A stretch of DNA of 24,043 nt from a virus, in IMG/VR virus record IMGVR_UViG_3300045973_000546, positions 1-24,043 of that record. One strand, 5' to 3'. The notes beneath the pieces were generated by a model that was not told where the DNA came from, made no database searches, and was given only the letters and a program-made list of their open reading frames with translations. The translations under genes were made by a program, and so were the position numbers. Positions 5,603 to 23,321 of this stretch are shown in pieces (the stretch's first letter is position 1; each line of letters begins with the position of its first letter).

Positions 5603-6046
5603 ATGGCAATGTCCGTTGCCATGAAGAGGATTATCACTGACCAGGATGAGCGCATTGGCGCATGGGTGGCGGCCAGCATTGGCCGGGCTGCGCCATGGGG
5701 GCCATTTCACGCGCTCGGAATTGAGCAGGATGGAATCCTTATTGCCGGAGTTGTCTTCGATGGCTGGGTAAAAGAGGCGCGCTGTTCGATGCACTGTGCA
5801 GGCATCGGCAAACGCTGGCTTACCAGAGAATTCCTCTTTGCGTGCTTTGATTACGCATTTCGGCAGTTGAATTGCAAGGTGATCATTAATCCGGTGGATG
5901 CGGACAATGAAGCATCCATCAAATTCACTTCGCACATTGGTTTTGCAGAGGTAGCAAGGATTCCGGAAGGCTCCGGAGATTGCGACCTAATTATTTTTGC
6001 CATGCCGCGCAGGACGTGTCGCTGGTTGAGCGTTAGACGGGGTTAA
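5603..6046 (+). CDS. GNAT-family N-acetyltransferase-like protein
   Basis: A 147-residue protein resembling phage-borne GNAT acetyltransferases, which move an acetyl group from acetyl-CoA to an amine. Supporting features are a strand pair around GILIAGVVFDGW, a helix with GKRWLTREFLFACFDYAF, and the typical late block CKVIINPVDADNEASIKFTS followed by HIGF. The usual R/Q-x-x-G-x-G/A acetyl-CoA loop is not clear; the GIGKRWL segment may serve. The start is uncertain: ATGs at 5603, 5609 and 5621 are all in frame and none has a strong Shine-Dalgarno sequence. It sits inside the virion operon, so the target could be a virion or host protein, which is unknown. Confidence 0.7.
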   Translation: MAMSVAMKRIITDQDERIGAWVAASIGRAAPWGPFHALGIEQDGILIAGVVFDGWVKEARCSMHCAGIGKRWLTREFLFACFDYAFRQLNCKVIINPVDADNEASIKFTSHIGFAEVARIPEGSGDCDLIIFAMPRRTCRWLSVRRG

Positions 6047-6048
6047 GC

Positions 6049-6963
6049 ATGGCTTACATCAGTAGACGGCAACTAGAATTCCTGGGCGAGCCCATTGGCA
6101 ACATGTCCGGTGTTGGCGTGGACGGCCGCGCCATTTATCACGGTGGCGGAAAGGGCGACTCGCCACCAGCCCCCGATTACACGCCGATGGCGAATGCTTC
6201 TGAAGAATCGGCGCGCATCGGCGCAGAACTTGGCCGAGAGCAACTGGCTGAGAATAAGCGGCAGTTTGAGGTAAATCAAACGACGCTGAAGCCGGTTATC
6301 GATCAATCGATCGAGACGCAGCGTATTTCCAACGAGCAAGGCGTCAAGAATTATGAGACGTTCCAGGCCGAAGGTCGCCCCATCCAGCAGCGCCTTGCAA
6401 GTATTGCTCTGGGAGGCGACTACACCGACGCACAAAAAGCAAAGCAGGAAGAAGCGGCCGGCACGGCAATTTCCGATGCGCGCGCCGGAACAAGCCAGCA
6501 AATGAACCAGCTGATCCGCCAGGGATTGCGCATGGGATGGAGCCCGGCGAAGTTGGCTTCAATGGGCGGCCAGGCGGCCACAATGGGCGCACAGAGCCAG
6601 GTTTCTGCGGCAAATTTGGCTCGAACCGGCGTGCAGGGTAAGCAGCTGGCCCAGATGGGCGATGCGTACAACACCTATTCCGGCCTCGGATCTTCTGCAC
6701 CGACGTTCTACAACTCGGGCACAGGCGCGGCGCAGGCGGCCAGCGGTACGCAACTTGGCGTATCTGGCCAGTACATGGGCGGAATGGCGCAGGGCAACGG
6801 AACGATCATGCAAGGGCAGCAGGCGCGCATCAGTGGCCTCGGCTCAATCCTGAGCAGTCAGACCGGCATATACGATTCGCAGATGGCGGCGAACTCATCT
6901 TCGGCCTCCGGGACAATGGGACTGATTGGTGCCGGCATCGGTGCAGCAGCGACGATCTACTAA
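6049..6963 (+). CDS. Internal virion / DNA-ejection protein (gp14-slot)
   Basis: A 304-residue protein rich in Ala, Gly, Gln and Ser. Residues about 55-110 form a helical, charged region (SARIGAELGREQLAENKRQF), followed by many Met/Gln-Gly segments and a C-terminal small-residue hydrophobic segment near residues 288-304 (GTMGLIGAGIGAAATIY). This is the usual makeup of podoviral proteins packed inside the head and ejected through the tail to form a conduit. The position, first of three such genes after the nozzle, matches T7 gene 14. The correspondence is positional and compositional, not proven homology. The stop overlaps the next ATG by one base. Confidence 0.7.
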   Translation: MAYISRRQLEFLGEPIGNMSGVGVDGRAIYHGGGKGDSPPAPDYTPMANASEESARIGAELGREQLAENKRQFEVNQTTLKPVIDQSIETQRISNEQGVKNYETFQAEGRPIQQRLASIALGGDYTDAQKAKQEEAAGTAISDARAGTSQQMNQLIRQGLRMGWSPAKLASMGGQAATMGAQSQVSAANLARTGVQGKQLAQMGDAYNTYSGLGSSAPTFYNSGTGAAQAASGTQLGVSGQYMGGMAQGNGTIMQGQQARISGLGSILSSQTGIYDSQMAANSSSASGTMGLIGAGIGAAATIY

Positions 6964-7685
6964 TGAGCGACTACGACGATATCTTTTCCCGCCATGATCG
7001 GGTGGCAATTCAAGTTTCTGGCGGCAAGGATTCGCTTGCTGCTTTGTACTTGCTGCGTCCATATTGGGATCGGCTGGTCGTCTATTGGCTTAATCCTGGA
7101 AATCCGTTTCCAGAGACGTATGAGGTAATTGACCGTGTTGCTTCGATGGTTCCGCATTTCAAAGAGGTACGAGGTCGCCAGCGCGAAATAATCAAGGAAG
7201 GCGGCTGGCCTTCTGATGTTGTACCAATTCGTTGGACAAGTTTCGGCCAGTTTGGCCTTGGCGAAAAGGCGTTCAAAGTGCAGGGGCGTTTTGATTGCTG
7301 CTGGCGCTCTCTGATGCTCCCCATGCACGAAGCCATGCTTGAAGATGGAATTACCTGCGTAATTCGAGGAAAGCGCAGCGACGAGGTTGATAAATCGCCA
7401 TCCAGATCAGGCGACGTGATCGACGGCATCGAATTCGTCTATCCGCTGTGGGATTGGTCGGCCGGTGATGTGCATACGTTCCTGAGAGATAACGGCGTAC
7501 AGCTTCCGGACTATTACCTCTACGTCGACAGTTCGCTCGACTGCATGGATTGCACCGCATGGTGGGAAGACGGTATCGGAAAATTCACCAAAGCAAGGTA
7601 TCCAGCGCTTCATGCGGAGTACGTGAGGCGGATTGGTTTAATCAAGTCGGCAATCGCCGACGAATTGACACGAATCGAGGACTGA
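6963..7685 (+). CDS. APS/PAPS-reductase-like PP-loop protein
   Basis: A 240-residue member of the adenine-nucleotide alpha-hydrolase/PAPS reductase superfamily. The PP-loop SGGKDS is at residues 19-24, where such enzymes bind the adenylate pyrophosphate or phosphate. Cysteines C112-C113 and C194-x-x-C197 reproduce the CC-(about 80)-CxxC spacing used to hold a 4Fe-4S cluster in APS reductases. A basic GKRSDE segment follows at about 136-141. Known relatives reduce APS/PAPS to sulphite or, as in DndC, act in DNA sulphur modification. The gene overlaps the gp14-slot gene by one base and precedes the gp15-slot gene by one base, so it is expressed with virion proteins. Whether it acts in sulphur metabolism or nucleic-acid modification is unknown. 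Confidence 0.85.
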   Translation: MSDYDDIFSRHDRVAIQVSGGKDSLAALYLLRPYWDRLVVYWLNPGNPFPETYEVIDRVASMVPHFKEVRGRQREIIKEGGWPSDVVPIRWTSFGQFGLGEKAFKVQGRFDCCWRSLMLPMHEAMLEDGITCVIRGKRSDEVDKSPSRSGDVIDGIEFVYPLWDWSAGDVHTFLRDNGVQLPDYYLYVDSSLDCMDCTAWWEDGIGKFTKARYPALHAEYVRRIGLIKSAIADELTRIED

Positions 7686-9354: not shown

Positions 9355-9402
9355 GCGTAGCAAGCATGGCAGCATCATCCTATCTACTTGATGGGCGGTG
9401 CC

Positions 9403-12400
9403 ATGGAAAAGTTACTGAGCGACGAAGAAGTATTCGGAAAGCAATCAAATAGCGTAAGACTGCTTTCAGATGATGAGGTTTTCGGTACAGCGAGCAAGCG
9501 CCGGCCAATCGATCAGATCATCAAGGACGAGAGCGATCCAGTAAGAGCCGCCAATGCGGCTAGCGACGCCGGGTACGATTACGCCGAGATAGACAAGGCA
9601 ATCACCGAACGCGAAGAGCGGGCAAAGGCGATGTCAGAGAAGCGCACGGTCGGAAATGTGGCGACGGATCTTGTTGCTCAGCCGATTATCGGTGCTCAGA
9701 AAATGGCAGCGGGTGGAATTCGCTTCGTTGGAGACGTCATTGCCCCTGAGCCAGACAAGCCAATCGACAATTTCCGCGAACAGGGTGGCGTAGCAAATGT
9801 TCGTCAAATCGTCGGGCGCGGGTTAAGCCAGTTCGGCGGGGAGATATACCAAGAGGGCGGAGACATTGAAAAGCAGGTCAATGTTGAAATGCCGAACGCA
9901 ACCCTTCAGGGGTTGTACGGCGGCGCCAAGTCCCTCGCGTTGCAGGCACCAATGCTTGGCGCTCCCGGTGTTGCTGCGCCGCTTGCCTTCATGGGCGGGC
10001 AAGTCGGACTCGATAAATACGCCGAAGCACGTGAAGCGAAATACACCCCAGGTATGTCGGCCGCAATTGGCGCTGGGCATGGCGGTATCGAAGTCGCTAC
10101 CGAATTGCTCCCGACAAAGTTCTTCAAGGAATCCATTGGAAAGGCTGGACTGAAGGAATTCGTTGTTGGCCTATTGGCGCGAGAAGTGCCGGGTGAGCAG
10201 GCGGCCACGCTGGGCCAGGATGCAATCGATCAGGCTGTCGGCCTATCGGGCAAGACAAAGGGCGATTGGGAACAATACTGGCAAGACCGGCCTGCCGCGG
10301 CTTATCAAACCCTTCTCGCCACACTGTCGCAATCCGGACTGCAAACGGCTGGCCATGCCGCATACAAGAAGCTATCAACGATCGGCGAGCCGAAGACCAA
10401 TCAGGATCTGATTGCGCAAGAGCTCTCGGAAAATGTTGCCAGCACCAATTTCTCAGCCGAAGGAATCGCCCAGTCGGCAGTAAATCAACTGAGCCCTGAC
10501 CGTGCGCAGATGCATGCGGCACCGGCCGCGAGTGCTGTTGATCCGACTGCCATGGCGACCACCGGGGATTCTGTAAATCCAGCTGCAAACGCATCTACGC
10601 CGATACCCGAGAATCCACAATCTTCCAGCGACCCGCTTCAGCGACTCGCAGAAATCGAGATTGAATCTTCGCGTCGCGAGCTCACGCCGGCCGAGGTTTC
10701 AGAAGCCAATTCACTTATTGAACAACTTCAAGGAGAAGAGAATGCCGTTACCGAGCTACATGACAATTCCTCAGAAACTCGGGGCGCGACCGAGCCCTCT
10801 GCTGATGTCGCTACTGGCGGGCAAGGGGTGCAAGGGGAAGAAGCCGCCGCCAAAACGGTAAAGCCAGGGGGCGAATGGGCAGAGTTTCCACCCGAGTCCG
10901 GAACACTCGGAATTCCTCGTTCCGAGATGCCGCAGATCAAGGCAGAGCACCGCGGCGCCCTGATCAATTTCATGAACGCTCGAGGCATCACCAGCCAGCA
11001 GGAAGAGGTTCCAGCTGACTCACTAAAGCCAACGCAGGCAGAGTATTCGCCGAAGAAAGTCGAGAAAGCCAAGGGGTTCGAAGGTGGTGATCGGTCGATT
11101 CTTGTTTCGTCGGATAACCATGTTCTCGACGGGCATCACCAGTTGCTCGCGAAGCAAGAAGAAGGGAAGCCGGTAAAAATCATTCGCCTGAATGCACCGA
11201 TCAGCGACCTTGTTCCGCTGGCGCATGAATTCCCAAGCGCCACGACCGCGCCCGGAGCGCCTGGCACACCGCTAAATCAGGGGTTTGTTCCGCTCAATGT
11301 GCCGAGCCTGTCGCCGGCCGCACAGGCGCGGGTATCGGGAATCGATAGCAGGCTTGGTGAAATCCAGGCAGACATGCCGAATCGCACGGCGCCAGTGCGG
11401 GCATCTTTGCAGCGCGAAGCTGCTCAGCTGCTGAGTGAAAAAGAAGTGATTCACGCTCAAGCGGCAGAGGCGGCGCAAGCCAAGCCAAAACAGCCCGCCG
11501 CGCGCCAACCTTCGCCAATCGAGCGCCGCGATGATCTGGTCGGCGCAATCATGCGAGTGACTGGCGGCAATGGTATTGCGGCAAGCCATGCTCAAACCAT
11601 CGTTGGCGATAAGGCGAACGCAGCAACCAAGGTTCGCGGGCTCTTTACCAACAAGGGTACAGCAGACCTTGGCGACACGGCCATGCTGTTGCGTGAACAG
11701 GAAGGCTACGACGTCAAAGACGGCGAGCATCTTTCGGAACTGATCCGCGAACAGGCGGCCGGAAATCCCGTGTACTCGATGGAGCGCATCGAGCGCGATG
11801 CCGCAGCGAATGCAGAAAAGCAGCACAAAGATTCGATCAACCGCCGCGCCGAAGAACTTGGCTTGAAGAAGAGCGGTGGCAAGCGTACTCTTGATGCTGT
11901 CATTGCTGATATTGCCCGCGAAGAAAAGCGCCTATCCGATCTTGAGTCAGATGCCGAGCGCGAGGCAATTCAGGCTGCCGACATCGCAGATAGTATTTAT
12001 CAAGAAGAATCTGATCTAACTGAAGCCGATTTGATGCAATGGCTTGGTGATCGTGTCGAATATTCACAGGACGAAATCAATGAAGCCAATACCCGATCAT
12101 CTAAAATCAAAAGTAGAAGATCTGAAGCTCGATCTATTGAAATATCCGATGAGCAAGCGCAAGGAGATCATCGAGAAGGGGATGGCGATCGCTCGTCAGC
12201 GACAATTGGTAGCCAATCTAAAGAAGGAGCGCGAGGAAATCTCGAAGACCAGTCCGCCACAGGGCAGCGGAGCAAAGATGATCAAGGCAATCAAGGAAGC
12301 AACAAAGGCGATCAGCAAGACCGTGTAACCGAGGACGGTCCAAAGCCGCAGTATCAGGCGGGCGATCGCATTGTTCCGGGAAAAGATGTATTCGATGGCG

Positions 12401-15400
12401 ACATCGTAAAGACCAAGAATGGCAAGCTGTGGATGGCGCGCGTCAAGCGCGGGGACACAATCCCAGTTGTTCCGTTTGAAAACGGGAAGCCAGTTGTATC
12501 GGCAGATACACGCAAGACCTTCAGCCTGCTATCGCAGGAAGTCACGCACACCGGTGAAAACTATTACGGGCATGGCGGCCAGCCGAAGCCAGGGCTAACA
12601 CTTACCGGCCAAACAGCCGCAGAAATCCGGCAACAGGAACAGGATCGAGTCGCTGCTGCCGCAGAGGCTGCGCGTCAGGAAACGCAAGACGCTGCCGACA
12701 AGAAGGCGGCTGAAAAGAAATCACTCGAAGATGCCATCAAGGCCCGAGCTGCGAACCCTGACAACTTCCAGTTTGGCGAAGATGCGAAAGCTGCAGCGAA
12801 GCCGATGGGTAATCTGTTTGATCAGCCTAGCGCCAATGCGCAAGTAGCTAAATCAAACGCCAAAGAACCCCCACCAAAATACGGAATTTACCAACTACCT
12901 GATGGATCGTTCGCAAAGTTCGATAGGGTTTGGTATCGCGGAGAAAAAACAGAGCGCGCTGCAATGCTCTCTGAAATGGTTATCCCAGGAAACGCTGCGC
13001 CAAAAGATAGGCTAGATAGCCAATCATGGGTATTTACCAAGGGGTTTTCCCGCAATGAATACGATGGTAGTCCATTGCGTCTTACCAAGAATGGCGAGGA
13101 TGCTGCGGTCGACGCCAGCAATGAGCGAGAAACAGCGGATCGACCAAGCGCCGAACCTGTAACGGAGCCGGAGAAATCCGAGTCCAGTACCCCATCAGAA
13201 ATGGACTCGCTCAAAGCAGAGATGGGCGATGCCATTGGAGAACTAGCTTCTATCCTTGGTGTGAAGATGAATCTCACACCGGAAGAGGAAAGCAAGATCA
13301 TTCCGGTGATGTCGAAGATTTTCCGCATCGCCGCAAAGATGGGTTACATCAAGTTTGCTGATGCAGCGAAGTATGTCATGCAGCAGATTCGCACTATGGC
13401 CGGGACAATCGTTGCCGACAAGATCAGCATCGAGAATCTTCAGGCCGGTTACATAAATGTTTCCAAGGAGATCGGCGGCGACAAACGCGAAGCCATGTCC
13501 TATGATTCAATTGAAGACTTGGAGAAATCAGAAAATGTCACTGACGAGCGTAGCAGCACCGATCTGGAACGAGATAGCCAAGACGCAGAAGCTGCGGACG
13601 CCGTGGGCGAAGATGGCGTTCGCGCTGGACGGGATGGCGATGGCGGAACTGGAAGACAAGGAGTGGAAGGAGCTGAAGCTGAAAGTGGACAGCGAGGTAG
13701 CGAGCGCAGTAGTGAAGATGAAGCCGCTACTGCTGGAGAACATAGCGATCAGCAAATATACACAGGCGCACCCGAACTATCGCCAGGCTCTGCCGGAAGT
13801 CGTGTCGATATCGGAAGCAGTAATGATAGCCTCGATGGATTACCCATTGAATCAGACGCAGCAGCAGCAGTTGAAAAAACTGCTACAAGCAGAGTTCAAA
13901 AAGAACGGGATCAACTAGCCCAGCAAAAGTCCGACAACAAGCCGCAAGGCGAAGGACTAGCCGCTGTTCGTGCTGCGCTTCCTATCCTCACCGAAGGGCA
14001 GCAAGACGACGTATTCAAGACTGAAACGCGCTTCGCTGTTCCTGACGGTTACGGCATGCTTTTCACCAACGGCACAGGAACTGGTAAAACATTCTCTGGT
14101 CTTGGCGTCATTAAGCGCATGGGCAATCAGGGAAAGAACAATATCCTGATCGTCGCGCCTAGCGATGAAATCATCAATGCTTGGCAGAAGGCCGGCAAGT
14201 TGCTTGGCCTTGAGCTTACCCGCCTTGCTGATACCAACGACGCCGGAACGGGTATCACCATCACGACCTACGCCAACATGGGCGCCAACAATGCGCTGGC
14301 AACACGCGACTGGGATATGGTCGTCCATGACGAAGCGCACTACCTGGCGATGGATAAGGACGGCACCAGCACCAATGCACTGAAGAACCTGCGGGCGATC
14401 ACGTTGCATCCGGATGGCGTGTTTCAGCGTCACAACATGATCAATGCGGCCGACATCCAGCGTCTGGCCGAGCTGGACGCGAGCGCCAAATCAGACCGTA
14501 TGTCTGACTTTGATGTTCAATGGCAGCGTGCCGAGGTTACGCAGAAAGAAGCCGACAAGCTGCGCAACGAACTGAAGGTCAAGCAAGACGCCATCAAGCA
14601 AGACGTAGCAGATCGCCAGGGCGCCAACCGCACCCGCGCGTTGTTCCTATCTGCAACACCGTTCGCCTACGAGAAAACAATCGACTGGGCCAATGGCTAC
14701 ATCTTCGACTACAACGAGGGCCAGGCCAGCGAAGATCGCGAGTTCAGGGGTTACAACTCCGGCAGCAACAAAGACCGTTTCTTCATGCAGCACTTCGGCT
14801 ACCGCATGCGGACGGGCAAGCTGACGCAGCCAGATGCTAAGGTCGATAGCGGTTTGATGCAGCGCCAGTTCAACGCCTGGCTGAAGAAGAAAGGATCGTT
14901 GTCTGGCCGCATGCTCGATGTCGCAGCCGACTATGACCGCAAGTTCATCCTGGTTGATTCGGCTATTGGACAGCGTATTGACGAGGCGCTGCAGTGGTTT
15001 GAGGTGAAACGCAAGGCGCAGCACTCCGGCACAGGTGAGATGGGCGAAAGAGCCGGCGCCATCATGGCGAAGGCTGACCCATACGTTGATGCGCTGAACG
15101 CTGTGCGCGACCAGATCGCAGAGAAGTTCGATTACCTGTCGCGCCGCTACCTGCTCGAATCGATCAAGGCCCGCGAAGTGGTTCCGCATATCCGCGAACA
15201 CATGGCGATAGGGCGCAAGATTGTTGTGTTCCACGACTACAAGAAGGGCGGCGGATTCAACCCGTTCATTCTTGACGAGCGTTCAGTGAAATCTCAAGAG
15301 GCGATAGACGCCACAGTGTCGGCCGAGCAGTGGAATCGTGTTGTCCGCGAGTTCAATGCTGAGTTCAAAGACATCATCAATTCAGACCTGTTCAGACAGT

Positions 15401-18400
15401 CGTCTCCGATTGATATGTTCAAGCAGGAATTCCCAGGCGTGCTGCTGTTCAATGGCGACGTGCCGGCCAAGACGCGCTGCGACAATGTTGCCAAGTTCCA
15501 GGACGACGCCAGCGGTCCGCAGATCATCCTTGTTCAATCTGCTGCAGGCAAGGAAGGCATCAGCCTGCATGACACCACAGGAAAGCACCAGCGCGTTCTA
15601 TTCAACCTTGGACAGCCAACTCAGCCGACTACCGCTATCCAGCAGGAAGGCCGTATCTACCGAACCGGCCAGGTGACTGACGCAATGTTCCGCTACTTGA
15701 ACACGGGCACCAACTGGGAGAAATGGGCTTTCGCAACAACCATCGCCCAGCGTGCCAGCACAGCAGAAAACCTAGGCATGGGCGAAATGGCTCGCGCCTT
15801 GAAAGATGCGTTCGTCTCAGGATTTGAAGAATCTGGCGACTATCGCGCCGGGATGGCAGGCGAGGGCAAGGGTGGCAAGGAACGCGACAAGGCCGCGAAC
15901 GACGCGCTGACCGAATACGACCGCGCTCGCGCTTTCTACTTCGGCACGCAGAAAAAGAACAGCAAGACCAAGGCGCAGGAAGGTGCTGACTACTTTGCAA
16001 CGCCTGAACCTGTCGGATTGAAGATGGTTGAATGGGCTGACGTTCGCCCAGGTGAGCGCGTGCTTGAGCCGTCAGCCGGCCATGGCGCTATTGCTCGCTG
16101 GTTCCCTGACACAGCAGACAAGACGGCAATCGAGCCAAGCATGGCGCTACGCTCGCGCCTGGCGATGGTGTTCAACGGAACGATGATCGACACCGACTTC
16201 GAGTCGATGAATGTCGTCAATAAGTTCGACGCCATCGTGATGAATCCACCGTTCGGCTCTGGCGGGAAGATGGCCGTTGAACACTTGGCAAAGGCCGCTA
16301 CGCACTTGCGTGATGGTGGCCGCATTGTGGCCCTGATTCCTACGGGACCGGCTGCTGACAAGAAGTTCGACAAGTGGATGTATGGCGAGGAAGAGCGAGC
16401 CATCAAGCCACTTTTCGACCATCCTGTTCTTGGTCCTATCTACCGCGGCGATACCGTTAATACGCGCGCAAGCTGGATGAAGGAAGGCGTCATTGTTCGC
16501 CGTGACAAAGACGGTCATTTGTGGATGAAGCGCGAAGGCGTGCCGGGTGAATCAATGGTTGCCACGGAGTCATTCACCAGCGTCAAGCCGACAGGCAAGC
16601 GCACCGAGATGGTCAAGACGGCACCCAGCCTGAACATGGTTGCCGACATCAAGATGCCGTCAGTCACGTTCGAGCGAGCCGGCACGCAGGTAATGACGCG
16701 CATTGTTGTGATCGAGAAACAGACTGCTGCGGACAAGGTGATTGATACCCGTGGCGTCTATAACAAAGACTTCACCGGTGAAGACGACATCAATGCGCTG
16801 TTCAACCGCATGGAAAACATGGCGTTGCCTGGCCGCTTGAAAGAGCGCACTGAGGAAGAAGTGCCGGCGACGAAAACGCAGAAGGTGGAAAATCCAGCAC
16901 CGTCAGCAGTTGGCGATGTGGTCACAATCGAAGGGGCAGAGTACCCGATTGAAATCTACGTCACGAACGACGGAAAGGAAAAGCGCGGCATCTGGATGGC
17001 AGAGAGGCTGGCCAAGGCGCTTAATCCGCGTGCGTTTAAGACAGCGAAGAACAACGGTACGCCGAATCAAGGCAAGTTCTTTGTCGATGAATACTGGCTG
17101 AAGAAGAACGGCCCGGCAGTGCTATCAGCTGCGCCGTTTTCGCGCGGGGAAGACTTCACACCAATCAGCCTTGACGTTGCTGCCGGCGTTGTCCAGCGCG
17201 TCCGCGCCATCGCGGAGAAAGAGTGGAAAGTCGATATTCGCCTCGTCCCGACCTTTGATTCGCTTCCGGACGATACGAAACAGGCAATAGCCAAGTATGG
17301 TGAGGACACCAAGGCCAAGGGCGTACTGCACAAAGGGGTTATTTATCTGGTTGCTGATGAACATGAGTCAGAAGCCGATTTGGAAACCACTATTCTGCAT
17401 GAAGCCAAGGGGCATGTGGGGATTCGTCGATTGTATGGAGCAGAGGCAGAGAAAAAACTGAATGCCTTGTTCGATGCTATCGGCGGCGCGCCGGGCCTGG
17501 CCAACATTGCCAAGCGCCGCGGATTCACTGAAGAAATGCAGGGCTATGCGCTGTCGCTCAAGGATTCGGATTTCTCGAATGGTGAGCGGACACGGATCAT
17601 CATGGAGGAATTGCTTTCCCACATCGCCCAAGAGCCAAAATTCACGGACAAGGTGAAGGCCGTTGTTGGTGCGGTTCGCGCATGGCTTCGAGATAACGGT
17701 TTCATGAGCCTGTCAAGCTACGGAGAAACCGACCTTCTTAAAATCCTCAGTGATGCCAGCAAATCGCTAAGCGTTATCCGATCCGAAGACGGCCTAGCCG
17801 TCCTGATGGCGTCGTCCCGCATTTCGGCAACCGCCAACAATGCTTATCAGCAAGGGAAGCAGAAGGTTGCGGATCTAACGAGTCCGGAATCAATCAACAC
17901 CCTGGTCTATAACTTCCAGAACAAGTACGTCGACCTGAAGAACATGCAGGACCGAATCAAGGCGATAGGCGGCACGCTGACCGATCTGAATGATGCCTAT
18001 CTCGGTGAAGAGATGTATCACGGCAAGGTGATGAAGAAGACCGCGGATTTCCTCGACGAAGAGATTCATCCGTTGCTTCGCCAGCTGTTCAACAATGGAA
18101 TCAAGAAGGAAGATTTCGAGCAGTATTTGCATGCCAGGCATGCGCCGGAGCGTAATGCGGCTATGGCTTTGCGCAATCCGAATCAGGCGATGATTGATGC
18201 CGGCCAGACAAAGGCGGATGCGGATCTGAAATCGTTACATCTGCAGTTGCAAAATGCTCAGGCGCATGGCTTGGCTACCAAGGCGATTGATAATTCTATC
18301 GAGAAAGCTAAGGCAGAGCGTGCGCAATGGCATGGCGCTCAGGCATTCAAAGGCACCGAGGACGAGCGCAACTCGCTTTCCGGTATGAGCGATGCGGCGG

Positions 18401-20619
18401 CAGCGCAGATCATGTCTGCCGTGAGGCCCGGCCACCGTCATGCAATGGATTCTGCCGCAGCTAAGGTAGATGCCATCAATGCCAAGTCGCTTGATCTCCA
18501 ATTGAATTCAGGCTTGATTGACCGGGCAACCTACAACGCGATCAAGAGCGCCTATAAATTCTATGTGCCATTGCATCGTGACGAGGCGCACCCAGATAGT
18601 GCCAGCCATCCGATAGGGCAGGGCTTCAGCGTTAAGGGCAGCGGCATCAAACGGGCGACCGGTTCAAACGAGACGGTGACAAACATTCTCGGCCACGTTG
18701 CCATGAATCGCGAGGCGCAGATCACGCGCTCTGAAAAGAATAGCGTCTCGAAGCGGCTCTATTTGCTGGCTTCGCAGAATCCGGACAAAGACTTTTGGAG
18801 CGTTGGCCGGCCGCCGACGATCAAGACCATTGACCCGCGCACTGGCTTTGTCCGTTCGCAGGTTGATCCAAACTATGCCAGCAAACCGAATGTGCTGGTC
18901 GTTCGCATTGCCGGCAAGGATGCGGCCATTGTATTCAATGAACACAACCAAGAGGCCGTGCGCCTGGCTGGTGCATTGAAAAACCTTGATGGGCAGGATC
19001 TTGATGTTGTCGAGCGCACGATAGGTAAGGCAACACGGTGGTTTGCTGCGGTCAACACGCAGTACAACCCTATTTTTGGCATCGTCAATTTGATGCGCGA
19101 CTCCCAAGAGGGAATCATCAACCTGACAACGACGGAAATCGGAAACAAGAAATGGGATGTTGCGAAAACCATTCCGTCTGCGATGCGCGCGATTTACCAA
19201 ATCGAGCGGGGTGGTATCGCTAGCAATCAGCGGATGGGTGATCTGTGGAAGGAGTTCCAAAGCGTAGGCGGGGAAACTGGCTATCGTGATCTATACGCCT
19301 CACCAGAGGATCGCGTGAAGGCGCTGGAGAAGGAGCTGAAATCGTTTGAGCGAGGAAGTATCAGCAAGCGGGCGCATGCCGTTGCTGAATGGCTTTCCGA
19401 CTACAACACGACGATGGAGAACGCGGTTCGTCTTTCGGCCTACAAGGTGTCCATTGAAAACGGATTGAGCAAAGAGCGCGCAGCCAGCCTGGCAAAGAAC
19501 CTCACAGTGAATTTCAATCGCAAGGGAGCAAAAGCGGCAAAGCTCGGCGCGCTCTACGCATTCTTCAATGCGTCCGCCCAGGGCACGGCCCGGGTAGCAC
19601 AAACTATGCGCGGCCCAGCCGGAACGAAAATACTGATTGGCGGCGTCGCGATTGGCATTCTTCAGCAGGCGCTCGGCATGATGATTATGGGCGGAAGCGG
19701 AGATGACGACAGCGAATGGGACAAGATTCCTGACTTCATCAAGGAAAATAATCTCATCTTCCCGATTGGCCACGATAAGTTCGTTTCTATTCCTCTTCCG
19801 CTTGGCCTCAAAGTATTACCGAACATTGGCCGCCTGTTTGCAGAGTGGGCAACCGGTGGTGAAGATCGGCCTACCGGGAAGCAGATTGGCAAATTACTGA
19901 GTATTGCCATCGGATCATTTAATCCGCTGGGCGGCAGTGACGTGGTGGACATGGTTTCTCCGACTGTCGCTGACCCGGTAATTTCCTTGCTTCGAAATAA
20001 GGACTGGACGGGCAAGCCGATATACCGCGAGGACATGGCAAGCCTTGATCCAACACCGGGATTCACGCGTACTAAGGATTCGGCAACGCCATGGGCAAAG
20101 GGATCGAGCTACATGATCAACCTGGCAAGCGGGGGGAACGATTATCGTCCTGGACTATGGAGCCCAACTCCGGATCAAATTGACTACGTTATTGGCCAAT
20201 TAACCGGTGGCGTCGGTCGCGAGCTTGGGAAGGCAGTGCAAACCGTATCGTTTCCTTTCACCGGCGATGAACTGCCAGCGCACAAAATTCCGCTTGCTGG
20301 CCGTCTATATGGGACCACTAATGGACCAAGCGGCCAGTCCGAGAAGTTCTACGAGAACATCAAGGAGCTGAACGGTATCCAGCGCGAATTGAAGGGGCGA
20401 ATCAAGGACGACAAGGATGTTACTGAATTTCTTGAAAAAGAGAAGCGCGCCGATCTGATTGGCCTGGGAAATTCAGCAGAGTCCCAAGTGCGGCATCTTC
20501 GCCAGCAGCGCCGGATACTTTCCAAGGAAGGCGACACCGCAGGAGCAAAGGAGATTGACGCATCAATCGCTGCAGTAATGAAGGGGCTCAATATGGAAAT
20601 GCGTCCAGCGAATCGATAG
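9403..20619 (+). CDS. Giant polyvalent ejected protein: ParB-like, helicase, methyltransferase, zincin
   Basis: About 3738 residues counted from ATG 9403. ATG 9391 and TTG 9388 are also in frame, and none has a clear Shine-Dalgarno sequence. In order: twin LLSDEEVFG/LLSDDEVFG motifs (4-28); Gly/Ala-rich region (about 65-330); ParB-like domain with VLDGHHQ (574-580); helical polyvalent domain (706-790); another near 1267-1365; SF2 helicase with GTGTGKT (1557-1563), DEAH (1643-1646), SAT (1750-1752) and QQEGRIYRTGQ (2080-2090); methyltransferase with LEPSAGHG (2221-2228) and NPPF (2281-2284), typical of N6-adenine enzymes; zincin-like HEAKGH (2666-2671); C-terminal polyvalent domain with a hydrophobic segment (3407-3428) and a PLxRFG-like PLAGRLYG (3630-3637). 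This resembles P1 DarB and other polyvalent proteins thought to be ejected to shield entering DNA from restriction. Three linkers carry nested ORFs in another frame. Confidence 0.9.
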   Translation: MEKLLSDEEVFGKQSNSVRLLSDDEVFGTASKRRPIDQIIKDESDPVRAANAASDAGYDYAEIDKAITEREERAKAMSEKRTVGNVATDLVAQPIIGAQKMAAGGIRFVGDVIAPEPDKPIDNFREQGGVANVRQIVGRGLSQFGGEIYQEGGDIEKQVNVEMPNATLQGLYGGAKSLALQAPMLGAPGVAAPLAFMGGQVGLDKYAEAREAKYTPGMSAAIGAGHGGIEVATELLPTKFFKESIGKAGLKEFVVGLLAREVPGEQAATLGQDAIDQAVGLSGKTKGDWEQYWQDRPAAAYQTLLATLSQSGLQTAGHAAYKKLSTIGEPKTNQDLIAQELSENVASTNFSAEGIAQSAVNQLSPDRAQMHAAPAASAVDPTAMATTGDSVNPAANASTPIPENPQSSSDPLQRLAEIEIESSRRELTPAEVSEANSLIEQLQGEENAVTELHDNSSETRGATEPSADVATGGQGVQGEEAAAKTVKPGGEWAEFPPESGTLGIPRSEMPQIKAEHRGALINFMNARGITSQQEEVPADSLKPTQAEYSPKKVEKAKGFEGGDRSILVSSDNHVLDGHHQLLAKQEEGKPVKIIRLNAPISDLVPLAHEFPSATTAPGAPGTPLNQGFVPLNVPSLSPAAQARVSGIDSRLGEIQADMPNRTAPVRASLQREAAQLLSEKEVIHAQAAEAAQAKPKQPAARQPSPIERRDDLVGAIMRVTGGNGIAASHAQTIVGDKANAATKVRGLFTNKGTADLGDTAMLLREQEGYDVKDGEHLSELIREQAAGNPVYSMERIERDAAANAEKQHKDSINRRAEELGLKKSGGKRTLDAVIADIAREEKRLSDLESDAEREAIQAADIADSIYQEESDLTEADLMQWLGDRVEYSQDEINEANTRSSKIKSRRSEARSIEISDEQAQGDHREGDGDRSSATIGSQSKEGARGNLEDQSATGQRSKDDQGNQGSNKGDQQDRVTEDGPKPQYQAGDRIVPGKDVFDGDIVKTKNGKLWMARVKRGDTIPVVPFENGKPVVSADTRKTFSLLSQEVTHTGENYYGHGGQPKPGLTLTGQTAAEIRQQEQDRVAAAAEAARQETQDAADKKAAEKKSLEDAIKARAANPDNFQFGEDAKAAAKPMGNLFDQPSANAQVAKSNAKEPPPKYGIYQLPDGSFAKFDRVWYRGEKTERAAMLSEMVIPGNAAPKDRLDSQSWVFTKGFSRNEYDGSPLRLTKNGEDAAVDASNERETADRPSAEPVTEPEKSESSTPSEMDSLKAEMGDAIGELASILGVKMNLTPEEESKIIPVMSKIFRIAAKMGYIKFADAAKYVMQQIRTMAGTIVADKISIENLQAGYINVSKEIGGDKREAMSYDSIEDLEKSENVTDERSSTDLERDSQDAEAADAVGEDGVRAGRDGDGGTGRQGVEGAEAESGQRGSERSSEDEAATAGEHSDQQIYTGAPELSPGSAGSRVDIGSSNDSLDGLPIESDAAAAVEKTATSRVQKERDQLAQQKSDNKPQGEGLAAVRAALPILTEGQQDDVFKTETRFAVPDGYGMLFTNGTGTGKTFSGLGVIKRMGNQGKNNILIVAPSDEIINAWQKAGKLLGLELTRLADTNDAGTGITITTYANMGANNALATRDWDMVVHDEAHYLAMDKDGTSTNALKNLRAITLHPDGVFQRHNMINAADIQRLAELDASAKSDRMSDFDVQWQRAEVTQKEADKLRNELKVKQDAIKQDVADRQGANRTRALFLSATPFAYEKTIDWANGYIFDYNEGQASEDREFRGYNSGSNKDRFFMQHFGYRMRTGKLTQPDAKVDSGLMQRQFNAWLKKKGSLSGRMLDVAADYDRKFILVDSAIGQRIDEALQWFEVKRKAQHSGTGEMGERAGAIMAKADPYVDALNAVRDQIAEKFDYLSRRYLLESIKAREVVPHIREHMAIGRKIVVFHDYKKGGGFNPFILDERSVKSQEAIDATVSAEQWNRVVREFNAEFKDIINSDLFRQSSPIDMFKQEFPGVLLFNGDVPAKTRCDNVAKFQDDASGPQIILVQSAAGKEGISLHDTTGKHQRVLFNLGQPTQPTTAIQQEGRIYRTGQVTDAMFRYLNTGTNWEKWAFATTIAQRASTAENLGMGEMARALKDAFVSGFEESGDYRAGMAGEGKGGKERDKAANDALTEYDRARAFYFGTQKKNSKTKAQEGADYFATPEPVGLKMVEWADVRPGERVLEPSAGHGAIARWFPDTADKTAIEPSMALRSRLAMVFNGTMIDTDFESMNVVNKFDAIVMNPPFGSGGKMAVEHLAKAATHLRDGGRIVALIPTGPAADKKFDKWMYGEEERAIKPLFDHPVLGPIYRGDTVNTRASWMKEGVIVRRDKDGHLWMKREGVPGESMVATESFTSVKPTGKRTEMVKTAPSLNMVADIKMPSVTFERAGTQVMTRIVVIEKQTAADKVIDTRGVYNKDFTGEDDINALFNRMENMALPGRLKERTEEEVPATKTQKVENPAPSAVGDVVTIEGAEYPIEIYVTNDGKEKRGIWMAERLAKALNPRAFKTAKNNGTPNQGKFFVDEYWLKKNGPAVLSAAPFSRGEDFTPISLDVAAGVVQRVRAIAEKEWKVDIRLVPTFDSLPDDTKQAIAKYGEDTKAKGVLHKGVIYLVADEHESEADLETTILHEAKGHVGIRRLYGAEAEKKLNALFDAIGGAPGLANIAKRRGFTEEMQGYALSLKDSDFSNGERTRIIMEELLSHIAQEPKFTDKVKAVVGAVRAWLRDNGFMSLSSYGETDLLKILSDASKSLSVIRSEDGLAVLMASSRISATANNAYQQGKQKVADLTSPESINTLVYNFQNKYVDLKNMQDRIKAIGGTLTDLNDAYLGEEMYHGKVMKKTADFLDEEIHPLLRQLFNNGIKKEDFEQYLHARHAPERNAAMALRNPNQAMIDAGQTKADADLKSLHLQLQNAQAHGLATKAIDNSIEKAKAERAQWHGAQAFKGTEDERNSLSGMSDAAAAQIMSAVRPGHRHAMDSAAAKVDAINAKSLDLQLNSGLIDRATYNAIKSAYKFYVPLHRDEAHPDSASHPIGQGFSVKGSGIKRATGSNETVTNILGHVAMNREAQITRSEKNSVSKRLYLLASQNPDKDFWSVGRPPTIKTIDPRTGFVRSQVDPNYASKPNVLVVRIAGKDAAIVFNEHNQEAVRLAGALKNLDGQDLDVVERTIGKATRWFAAVNTQYNPIFGIVNLMRDSQEGIINLTTTEIGNKKWDVAKTIPSAMRAIYQIERGGIASNQRMGDLWKEFQSVGGETGYRDLYASPEDRVKALEKELKSFERGSISKRAHAVAEWLSDYNTTMENAVRLSAYKVSIENGLSKERAASLAKNLTVNFNRKGAKAAKLGALYAFFNASAQGTARVAQTMRGPAGTKILIGGVAIGILQQALGMMIMGGSGDDDSEWDKIPDFIKENNLIFPIGHDKFVSIPLPLGLKVLPNIGRLFAEWATGGEDRPTGKQIGKLLSIAIGSFNPLGGSDVVDMVSPTVADPVISLLRNKDWTGKPIYREDMASLDPTPGFTRTKDSATPWAKGSSYMINLASGGNDYRPGLWSPTPDQIDYVIGQLTGGVGRELGKAVQTVSFPFTGDELPAHKIPLAGRLYGTTNGPSGQSEKFYENIKELNGIQRELKGRIKDDKDVTEFLEKEKRADLIGLGNSAESQVRHLRQQRRILSKEGDTAGAKEIDASIAAVMKGLNMEMRPANR
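10742..10861 (+). CDS. Nested small ORF 1 inside the giant gene (+1 frame)
   Basis: A 39-residue candidate starting MPLPSYMTIPQKLGARPS and ending in a basic KGKKPPPKR tail. It has an ideal AAGGAG at 10730-10735 with a six-base spacer to ATG 10742. In the giant frame the same DNA encodes a low-complexity linker (about residues 447-486) just before the ParB-like domain. By hand count, about 29 of 39 third positions are G/C in the nested frame against about 21 of 40 in the giant frame. It is short, so chance is a real alternative. No family is recognised. Confidence 0.4.
   Translation: MPLPSYMTIPQKLGARPSPLLMSLLAGKGCKGKKPPPKR
12080..12328 (+). CDS. Nested small ORF 2 inside the giant gene (+1 frame)
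   Basis: An 82-residue candidate starting MKPIPDHLKSKVEDLKLDLL, strongly helical and charged, with a Lys-rich C-terminus (MIKAIKEATKAISKTV). AGGA at 12068-12071 lies eight bases before ATG 12080; an upstream GTG at 12044 is also in frame. The giant frame across this DNA (about residues 893-975) is an Asp/Gly/Gln/Ser-rich linker with no fold-like pattern. Hand count of G/C at third positions gives about 51 of 82 in the nested frame but about 28 of 83 in the giant frame, against about 51 of 80 in a sample of the helicase domain. That contrast favours the nested frame as the better-adapted coding frame. The function is unknown, and the alternative is a formerly independent gene now read only as a linker. 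Confidence 0.5.
   Translation: MKPIPDHLKSKVEDLKLDLLKYPMSKRKEIIEKGMAIARQRQLVANLKKEREEISKTSPPQGSGAKMIKAIKEATKAISKTV
13535..13918 (+). CDS. Nested small ORF 3 inside the giant gene (+1 frame)
   Basis: A 127-residue candidate starting MSLTSVAAPIWNEIAKTQKL. It reads like a folded helical protein: ELEDKEWKELKLKVDSEVAS, then MKPLLLENIAISKY, then ALPEVVSISEAVMIASMDYP, with a Gln/Lys-rich end. GGAG at 13521-13524 lies ten bases before ATG 13535. The giant frame here (about residues 1378-1505) is a Gly/Asp/Glu/Ser-rich low-complexity linker directly before the helicase. By hand count, about 94 of 127 third positions are G/C in the nested frame against about 43 of 128 in the giant frame. No family was recognised. 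It may be a true overlapping gene, or a captured gene whose frame is no longer translated separately. Confidence 0.55.
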   Translation: MSLTSVAAPIWNEIAKTQKLRTPWAKMAFALDGMAMAELEDKEWKELKLKVDSEVASAVVKMKPLLLENIAISKYTQAHPNYRQALPEVVSISEAVMIASMDYPLNQTQQQQLKKLLQAEFKKNGIN

Positions 20620-20773: not shown

Positions 20774-22015
20774 CTAATCCGTAGTTACTGCTTCGCCATC
20801 ACCTTCCGCTGCCGCCTTGGCGACCAGCGCGTCAATCCAGTCCGCCCAAGCCTGCATCATCTCCCGGCGCTCTGGTATGTATTCTGCATGGTTATAGGCC
20901 GCCTTAACTTGGTTTCGCTCAGCATGGGCCAATTGCTTTTCAATGATGTCGCTTCGCCAGCCCAGTTCATGCAACTGGGTAGAGGCGGTCGTCCGGAAGC
21001 CGTGCCCGCTGAACTGACCTAGATAACCCATGCGCTCAAGAACGCGATTTATAGTGGTGCTGGTCATACACGTTCCTGAAGTCCGCAGGTTCGGGAACAG
21101 GAACTTGCGGTTGCCGGAAATCATGTGCAACTCGCGCAGCAGCGCAACAGCCTGCCGGGACAGCGGGACAATATGGACCTCGCCCGGCAGCATGTGTTTT
21201 GCCATCTTCATTCTGATCGCCGGGATGCGCCACTCAGCCGCATCCAGATCAAACTCGACCCACTCGGCGAGTCGTAGCTCTTTCGTTCGAATGAACGTCA
21301 GAAGCATCAATCGGACAGCAATTTTCGTCCCCAAATATCCCCCATAAGCATCCAGCTTTATCAGGAACTTCGGTATCTCGTCTTGCGACAGCGGCGGGTT
21401 ATGCCGTACCGGCTTTCGCTTCAGCGCGCCGGCCAGCGACGTAGCCGGATCGAATTCGGCTTTCTGGTTCGGGATCGCCCAGCGGAAAATCTGACTCGAC
21501 CATTGCCGGATCAGGACCGCGATTGTCCCGGCCCCTCGCTTCTCGACCTTGCGGATGATCTCCAACAGGTGCGCCGCCTTGACGGTTCGGATTGGGAAAG
21601 CCCCGATGGTCGGGAAAACGTCCTTGGTCAAATTGTCATCGACCTGCTTCGCGTAGGTTGCAGACCAATGCGCCTTGTTGTCGACGATCCACTCGCGGGC
21701 GACTGACTCGAAAGTGTTGGTGTTCTCATCGATCACGCCCAGGCGCTCGGCCTTCTTCGAACTGGTTGGGTTCAGCCCCTGCTTGACCTGATCCCGCGCC
21801 CACTCGCGTGCCTTGCGAGCATCGGACAGCGAGACGGCCGGATATTCACCGATGGTGTAAATGCCGTCCTTGCCGTCTGGCTTCCAGTAGCGGTACCGCC
21901 AGAACTTTGCCCCGGACGGCCGGACCTCAAGAAAAAGCCCCTGGCCATCCTGCAGCTTGTAGGGTTTCTCTGTGGGCTTGGAATTACGGAGCTTTGTGTC
22001 TGTGAGGGATGCCAT
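20774..22015 (-). CDS. int: Prophage tyrosine integrase (P4-type)
   Basis: A 413-residue tyrosine recombinase of the P4-like type with an N-terminal DUF4102-style arm-binding domain (LTDTKLRNSKPTEKPYKLQD, then GQGLFLEVRPSGAKFWRYRY). A core-binding domain spans about 100-190 and the catalytic domain about 205-390. Catalytic residues are visible: R243 (in FIRTKELRLAEW), H338-x-x-R341 (HGFR), H364 (QLAHAERN) and Y374 (AAYNHAEY). The enzyme cuts and rejoins attP and attB, leaving the phage integrated. It is convergent with the late operon, with no clear terminator in the roughly 30-base gap. No Shine-Dalgarno sequence precedes the ATG. Instead a perfect inverted repeat abuts it, suggesting repression or att-related binding at its own start. 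Length and motifs are complete, so it should be active. Confidence 0.95.
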   Translation of the reverse strand: MASLTDTKLRNSKPTEKPYKLQDGQGLFLEVRPSGAKFWRYRYWKPDGKDGIYTIGEYPAVSLSDARKAREWARDQVKQGLNPTSSKKAERLGVIDENTNTFESVAREWIVDNKAHWSATYAKQVDDNLTKDVFPTIGAFPIRTVKAAHLLEIIRKVEKRGAGTIAVLIRQWSSQIFRWAIPNQKAEFDPATSLAGALKRKPVRHNPPLSQDEIPKFLIKLDAYGGYLGTKIAVRLMLLTFIRTKELRLAEWVEFDLDAAEWRIPAIRMKMAKHMLPGEVHIVPLSRQAVALLRELHMISGNRKFLFPNLRTSGTCMTSTTINRVLERMGYLGQFSGHGFRTTASTQLHELGWRSDIIEKQLAHAERNQVKAAYNHAEYIPERREMMQAWADWIDALVAKAAAEGDGEAVTTD

Positions 22016-22310: not shown

Positions 22311-23321
22311 ATGAACGCAGCGCACGCCATGCCCCCGCACCGTCTTTCCATCGTCGTTCCTGTTTACAACGAGGAAGACAATGTCGCACCGCTCGTCAAA
22401 CGCGTGCATGAAGCGCTGGAAGGCTATGAAAACCCCTGGGAGCTGGTGCTGGTGGATGATGGCAGCAGCGACGGCACGGTGGATCGTGGCTTGCTCGCCG
22501 CCAAGGAGTACGGCCCGCACGTCCGCATCGTTGAACTGACGCGCAATTTCAAGCAAACGGCCGCCATGCAGGCCGGCATTGATGCGGCACGCGGCGATGT
22601 CATCGTCACCATGGATGGTGATTTGCAAAATGACCCTATCGACATTCCGCGCATGGTCGCCCGACTGCTTAATGAAAATCTCGATCTGGTCGCCGGCTGG
22701 CGGCAAAACCGGCAGGATGGCCTGTTCCTGCGCAAGATTCCCTCGAAAATTGCTAACAAGCTGATCGCCCGTATGACCGGTGTGCATCTGCGCGACTACG
22801 GCTGCAGCTTGAAGGCCTTCCGTGGCAGTGTGATCAAGAGCGTGCGCCTGTACGGCGAAATGCACCGCTTCATCCCGGCCTGGCTGGCCACCGTGACGAC
22901 ACCACGGCGTATCGCGCAGGAACCGACGACGCACCACGCGCGCACGGCTGGCGTTTCCAAATACGGGATTTCGCGCACCTTCCGCGTCATTCTCGATTTG
23001 ATTGCGGTGTACTTCTTCATGCGCTTCCGCGCCCGGCCTGGCCATTTTTTCGGCGGCATCGGTCTGTTTCTGACGGCGATTTCCCTGCTCGATCTGAGCT
23101 GGCTGGCCTGGGTGAAGTTCGGGCTCGGCGAATCAATCGGTGGTCGTCCGGCCCTGATTGTCGGCATCGGCGGCCTGATCGCCGGGGTGCATTTCATCAC
23201 CACCGGTGTGCTCTCGGAAATCATGGCGCGCATTTACTTTGAATCCGGCACCGTGCGTTCCTACGCCGCCCGTCCAGAAACACAGCTGGCGGCCGACCAA
23301 GGTTGGCACGCGCCACAGTGA
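22311..23321 (+). CDS. GT2 polyprenyl-phosphate glycosyltransferase (DPM1/ArnC-like)
   Basis: A 336-residue family 2 glycosyltransferase that probably transfers a sugar from a nucleotide donor to a polyprenyl phosphate on the cytoplasmic face of the inner membrane. Landmarks are the opening strand LSIVVPVYNEEDN, DDGSSDGT (49-56), the metal- and donor-binding DGDLQNDP (102-109), and two C-terminal membrane segments (about 245-267 and 278-302), the layout of ArnC/GtrB-type enzymes. The ATG at 22311 is taken, but ATG 22329 (MPPHRL) is equally plausible since neither has a strong Shine-Dalgarno sequence. Its stop overlaps the next gene's GTG by four bases, so the pair is an operon. This is bacterial chromosome, not phage. 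The sugar is unknown. Confidence 0.85.
   Translation: MNAAHAMPPHRLSIVVPVYNEEDNVAPLVKRVHEALEGYENPWELVLVDDGSSDGTVDRGLLAAKEYGPHVRIVELTRNFKQTAAMQAGIDAARGDVIVTMDGDLQNDPIDIPRMVARLLNENLDLVAGWRQNRQDGLFLRKIPSKIANKLIARMTGVHLRDYGCSLKAFRGSVIKSVRLYGEMHRFIPAWLATVTTPRRIAQEPTTHHARTAGVSKYGISRTFRVILDLIAVYFFMRFRARPGHFFGGIGLFLTAISLLDLSWLAWVKFGLGESIGGRPALIVGIGGLIAGVHFITTGVLSEIMARIYFESGTVRSYAARPETQLAADQGWHAPQ

Follow-up and report, generated by a model that had tools for sequence, protein, structure and literature searches.

We found that a small gene very probably lies out of frame inside the giant polyvalent gene of the phage sequence analysed here, with its own translation start and a close tie to the helicase that the giant gene encodes. 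The window, by which we mean the whole stretch of 24,043 nucleotides from IMG/VR record IMGVR_UViG_3300045973_000546, contains a giant ORF on the plus strand at 9388-20619 (3743 codons as listed, TTG start). Nested within it on the same strand, at 13535-13918 and in the +1 frame, is an ORF with an ATG start and 127 codons followed by TAG, encoding a product of ~14 kDa that is predicted to be all-helical. A Shine-Dalgarno-like GGAG (13521-13524, +) stands 10 nt 5' of this ATG. A previous sequence-only reading of the window had pointed out the 127-codon ORF and its GGAG, and the coordinates confirm both.

The nested frame had a third-position GC of 74.0%; the same stretch read in the giant frame had 33.1%, and a set of 1000 codons from the helicase region 68.8%, which bears out the earlier hand counts of 74, 34 and 64%. 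Taken by itself, the window shows an open +1 frame that is no more than weakly to mildly unusual. When the giant gene was reshuffled synonymously, +1 frames of this length or longer arose at P = 0.15 with codons resampled from the gene and at P = 0.017 with codons permuted. What raises the nested ORF above chance is that, wherever a relative has the giant frame open, the homologue is again read in +1, together with selection that is specific to the frame.

By Pfam and PHROG matches the host gene encodes a DarB-like polyvalent protein, a multidomain product that combines a SWI2/SNF2 ATPase, an adenine methylase and an LPD domain. Directly upstream of the nested gene is a helical domain (13234-13527, +; AlphaFold residues 1-98, pLDDT mostly >90) that appears to be exchangeable by recombination; its consensus AGYHIEkGAR.Fa.yAkAMv.dlG was found in many giant relatives and is swapped among them, and the domain had no match in Pfam or NCBIfam. 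Downstream follow a SNF2/Strawberry-notch-type SF2 helicase-like module (14056-15762, +; Pfam ResIII, SNF2-rel_dom, Helicase_C and Helicase_C_4), an N6-adenine methyltransferase-like core (best Pfam stretch 16177-16332, +; Pfam MTS above cut-off, PHROG DNA methyltransferases) and, near the C terminus, an LPD38 polyvalent-protein domain (19708-20295, +; Pfam E 7e-45). Elsewhere in the window, the adjacent genes at 713-1402 and 1414-2112 both match PHROG 399 (structural protein), apparently as a tandem duplication, and the virion gene block includes an acyltransferase-like gene (5603-6046) and a PAPS-reductase-like gene (6963-7685). The giant gene is followed by an integrase gene (20774-22015, -) and a gene for a GtrB-like O-antigen glycosyltransferase (22311-23321, +), and the source phage is therefore probably temperate.

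Homologues of the nested protein are numerous: the main set holds 95 distinct proteins, and we counted about 99 distinct sequences overall. Their carriers are six phages, IMG/VR contigs by the dozen, MAGs of bacteria and three plasmids. With the exception of a single transplanted copy, from Desulfamplus, all of them overlap a helicase-methylase gene and are read in its +1 frame. A tblastn search of phage genomes with the 127-aa product returned eight records from six distinct phages (E 4e-11 to 0.06), namely Klebsiella ZX1, Ruegeria 45A6, Serratia Parlo, Pseudomonas Skulduggery, Vibrio 1.232.O and Vibrio D274, and searches with two other family members joined all six at E 5e-9 or better. Every phage match falls within an annotated giant gene and, by the annotated CDS coordinates, in the same +1 relation as in the window. 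IMG/VR contributed 51 further loci and GTDB genomes two; a class-wide search around a Rhodocyclaceae MAG gave 2 matches in 369 genomes, one of them new. A tblastn search of plasmids with a single family member (L009) gave no match; a profile search of helicase-bearing plasmids identified three carriers, from Comamonas (E 6e-40), Acinetobacter oleivorans (5e-17) and A. baumannii (8e-13), all with the nested gene in the +1 frame and with in-frame stops 5-17 codons upstream of its ATG. All loci read agreed in the frame relation and in the position of the ATG, and in each the nested gene had a separate stop. Conservation at the protein level reaches down to about 30% identity, and W11, N12, P64, E68, A71, P87, E94 and L105 are invariant or nearly so in the family alignment. 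At one locus (L034/L090, IMGVR_UViG_3300049043_000362) the nested gene is intact and the giant gene is broken across several frames, through either sequencing indels or decay. The nested product had no match in Pfam, PHROGs, NCBIfam, PADLOC or PDB sequences. No record that we inspected annotates the nested gene, and the overlap is not described in the open-licence papers searched.

Both frames are kept open by selection. Across 67 close pairs, dN/dS was mostly 0.15-0.6 in the nested frame and mostly 1.1-2.5 when those bases were read in the giant frame, with one exception, a 97%-identical pair with few changes (L038/L056). The sequence-only reading had proposed comparing synonymous change per frame in aligned relatives. 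When 16 pairs were pooled, the nested frame gave a dN/dS of 0.31, and the giant frame within the overlap a dN/dS of 1.75 and a dS of 0.14; outside the overlap, giant-frame dS was 0.78 downstream (dN/dS 0.23) and 0.91 upstream. The synonymous rate of the giant frame thus falls 5.5-fold exactly over the nested ORF. A sliding profile of roughly 3200 codons contained one deep synonymous trough, at codons 0-119 from the nested start, where synonymous differences were 0.08-0.10 compared to about 0.24-0.65 elsewhere. Since the trough is single, the codons profiled contain no second overlap of this kind. With the nested protein taken as fixed, the mean probability of an open giant frame by chance was 0.028 per locus, and the frame was open at 52 of 52 loci; the selection and open-frame counts ignore the kinship of the loci, and the effect appears in nearly all pairs and in several lineages. 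Stops that break the nested frame in relatives had been named earlier as an outcome that would speak against a gene; the nested frame was not broken in them.

We considered whether the ORF is open by chance, or whether an RNA element and not a protein constrains the synonymous sites. The window-only P values leave some room for this and are not decisive on their own, but the synonymous trough stops at the ORF ends, the nested protein is conserved to low identity under a dN/dS well below one, it has a confident predicted fold, and its start and Shine-Dalgarno sequence are kept. A chance ORF is ruled out by the comparative selection tests, and we regard this pair of explanations as barely credible. 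The locus instead appears to be a conserved overlapping nested gene: an ORF inside another ORF, in a different frame, found in diverse relatives and carrying a dual-frame selection signature. The earlier suggestion of an overlapping gene therefore stands on some 99 distinct sequences, a retained start and Shine-Dalgarno sequence, purifying selection on the nested frame and a trough whose borders match those of the ORF.

At the level of sequence, the start signals suggest that the nested gene has its own site of translation initiation. All 54 distinct nested genes checked start with ATG, and 50 of them have a Shine-Dalgarno-like tetramer at the right distance, compared to 15% of control ATGs (3274 ATGs located elsewhere in the +1 frame of these giants). 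An in-frame stop lies directly 5' of the nested ATG in 11 of the 54 genes and within five codons of it in 20, so that in those phages the product is not a frameshift extension of the giant. A search for an internal promoter gave one weak match, not clearly above chance. The shared strand and the +1 relation would also suit a +1 ribosomal frameshift that extends the N-terminal part of the giant, with no separate protein made. These stops, however, rule out such a product; the positions of the ATG and the Shine-Dalgarno sequence are also conserved, and the sequence upstream is replaced among relatives, which makes a common shift site unlikely. We consider frameshifting very improbable. The nested gene would more plausibly be translated from its own Shine-Dalgarno sequence and ATG on a late message, as judged from the sequence.

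The two readings of the overlap differ markedly in predicted structure. AlphaFold modelled the nested protein as a confident fold of seven helices (pLDDT 90.0, pTM 0.81), in agreement with the earlier view that this frame encodes a helical, fold-like protein. The corresponding segment of the giant was modelled as a confident helical domain (residues 1-98), then a disordered stretch (residues 101-203, pLDDT about 40) and then helices leading into the helicase, and the disorder begins where the nested gene begins. This predicted linker (13534-13842, +) is rich in Gly, Asp, Ser, Arg and Ala, and translation of the giant frame over the nested ORF confirmed the Gly/Asp/Glu/Ser-rich character noticed previously. 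Its composition approximates a passive -1 reading of the nested gene (r 0.92), and the giant-frame sequence is depleted of Cys, His, Tyr, Trp and Leu. The giant's version of the overlap thus reads as a passive, disordered shadow of the nested frame. Searches with the nested model gave best Foldseek E values of 0.11 (viral, BFVD) and 3.1 (PDB), and a second look with VIA-align gave a best Z of 4.2 over 65 residues; none of these amounted to a convincing fold match. A DNA-mimic antirestriction protein of the Ocr/ArdA kind is not favoured, as the nested proteins have a mean net charge of only -3.7, and the one in the window has +2.

The small gene is closely linked to the helicase-methylase part of the giant. 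When contigs were fetched by the helicase alone, without reference to the nested gene, 80 of 80 carried it, always in the +1 frame, and near full-length helicase relatives occurred in six phages, which are the six that have the nested gene. Identity of the nested protein tracks helicase identity (r 0.68) and hardly that of the upstream region (partial r 0.13). Among 113 pairs in which nested protein and helicase both exceed 60% identity, 50 have upstream domains below 40%; a further 33 pairs have a similar upstream region and a divergent helicase, and in the examples listed from these the nested gene follows the helicase. These patterns indicate a recombination breakpoint immediately 5' of the nested gene, and that the small gene and the helicase are inherited as one module. 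A distant Bacteroidota relative, from Aquimarina, begins at the helicase and has neither the linker nor the nested gene.

Codon usage suggests that the nested small gene is the older of the two frames. Relative synonymous codon usage (RSCU) in the nested frame correlated with that in the rest of the giant gene at a mean r of 0.50; for the overlap read in the giant frame the mean was 0.17, and the nested value was higher in 77 of 90 cases. In the window, the nested frame reached r 0.63, a helicase control 0.60 and the giant frame in the overlap -0.04, which supports the earlier claim that codon adaptation sits in the hidden frame. The use of codon usage as a criterion of frame age is reviewed in PMC8227390. 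Together with the Aquimarina arrangement it favours capture of an older, free-standing small gene, which we hold to be the most likely origin with moderate confidence. Such a gene would have stood just upstream of a helicase-methylase gene; an ORF further upstream would then have become continuous with the helicase by running across the small gene in a different frame. As we read the locus, the giant's version of the overlap is no more than a disordered tether between the exchangeable helical domain and the SNF2-helicase/N6-methylase.

Overprinting would reverse this order: the giant linker would be old and the nested gene would have arisen de novo in the +1 frame. It fits what is known of viral genes in that +1 is the commonest frame for those of de novo origin, whose products tend to hydrophobic enrichment and acidic depletion (PMC8227390), and the nested product is hydrophobic-rich and acidic-poor. 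Apart from the recently transferred Desulfamplus copy, every copy known lies in an overlap, and an old de novo gene could since have adapted its codons (Sabath et al. as reviewed in PMC8227390). Against this, genome-like codon usage is found in the nested frame and not in the giant frame, the giant frame is disordered, fast-evolving and passive, and the linker-less helicase relative lacks linker and nested gene alike. We regard overprinting as possible, if somewhat doubtful. The earlier notion of a captured former gene is thus favoured by codon usage, the disordered shadow and the Bacteroidota relative, short of proof. A similar fusion across an existing small gene has been proposed for the hepatitis B virus polymerase and gene S (PMC8227390), where the small gene is likewise thought to have separated two portions of a larger coding unit, and the large protein is now read across it out of frame. 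The animal virus and its proteins are unrelated; here the host is a polyvalent gene of a tailed phage, the nested gene is internal and has a bacterial Shine-Dalgarno sequence, and the genealogy is drawn from codon usage and one linker-less relative.

One copy of the small gene occurs without the giant. In a Desulfamplus MAG (JADFZJ010000049.1, locus L060:125-889) the nested ORF and its Shine-Dalgarno sequence are intact and the giant is lost; tblastn of the giant found no match outside the overlap. Our first impression of a standalone ancestral gene was ruled out by the -1 frame, which contains 1 stop compared to 12.5 expected, so that the copy must have left a giant gene recently. The copy is flanked by CRISPR-like repeats; on a second contig of this assembly, next to type I-D cas genes, the same repeat forms a 15-copy array with 64-65-bp spacing. 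A homologue search had been suggested earlier; it returned many relatives, and the only free-standing one among them looks recently moved. Its intact state could point to a function without the helicase, though the copy moved recently; we treat it, a single case in a MAG, as a lead.

From its linkage to the helicase module, the likeliest function we can propose, tentatively, is that of a partner of the giant enzyme, as a late accessory or packaging protein. The nested protein would be made late and help the giant into the capsid, or would hold or assist the helicase-methylase before and after ejection. The small protein could instead be a free anti-defence or host-takeover factor, encoded in the linker by happenstance and never touching the giant. 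A small folded protein with no family match in a late gene block would suit this, as would the intact Desulfamplus copy between repeats of a cas-associated array, and there is a precedent in ardD, an antirestriction gene within tniA (PMC3533173). The strict one-to-one linkage and co-recombination with the helicase module argue against an independent effector, as does the absence of a PADLOC match, and the Desulfamplus copy is single and recently moved. We therefore consider such a role rather unlikely.

The proposed partner role resembles that of known helpers in the P1 Dar system, in which DarB is a giant helicase-methylase packaged in the capsid and the smaller virion proteins Ulx, DdrB, DarA and Hdf aid localization (PMC9024508). 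The job suggested for the nested protein is like that of Ulx or DdrB for DarB, without homology; a relationship to Ulx was rejected by hhalign (probability 0.2%). The ulx gene is separate and adjoins darB, and Pfam matches in the window's giant place helicase before methylase. Virion packaging, ejection along with the DNA and antirestriction activity are known for P1 DarB, and a DarB-like protein was seen in JC1 virions (PMC9024508, PMC9144972). The ardD gene in tniA of Tn5053 is likewise a small gene nested in a large mobile-element protein gene and is tied to restriction biology (PMC3533173), but it is antisense, in contrast to the same-strand +1 arrangement of the window. The DarB-like or PLxRFG giants of Parlo, ZX1, Skulduggery and Bcep22-like phages belong to the same class of host gene (PMC6606913, PMC9505181, PMC9144972). 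In Parlo, ZX1 and Skulduggery the nested gene is present yet unannotated, published and deposited annotations giving the giant only; no Bcep22-like record was matched in our nested tblastn searches of phage genomes.

In conclusion, every proteobacterial-type member of the host family that we examined carries the nested gene, and the annotation we inspected misses it. With this gene, the antirestriction/ejection module found in podovirus-like phages and phage-like plasmids would gain a new protein family, and the gene presents an unusually clean case in a tailed phage in which the annotated frame appears passive and the hidden frame does not. It is possible, though we hold this with still less assurance than a partner role as such, that the linker joining the parts of these giants, throughout their family, is an out-of-frame shadow cast by an older gene that is still needed, and that the product of this older gene is an obligate partner (a loader, regulator or subunit) of the ejected helicase-methylase. 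If so, both partners of the machine would be written on the same DNA and would move as one unit.
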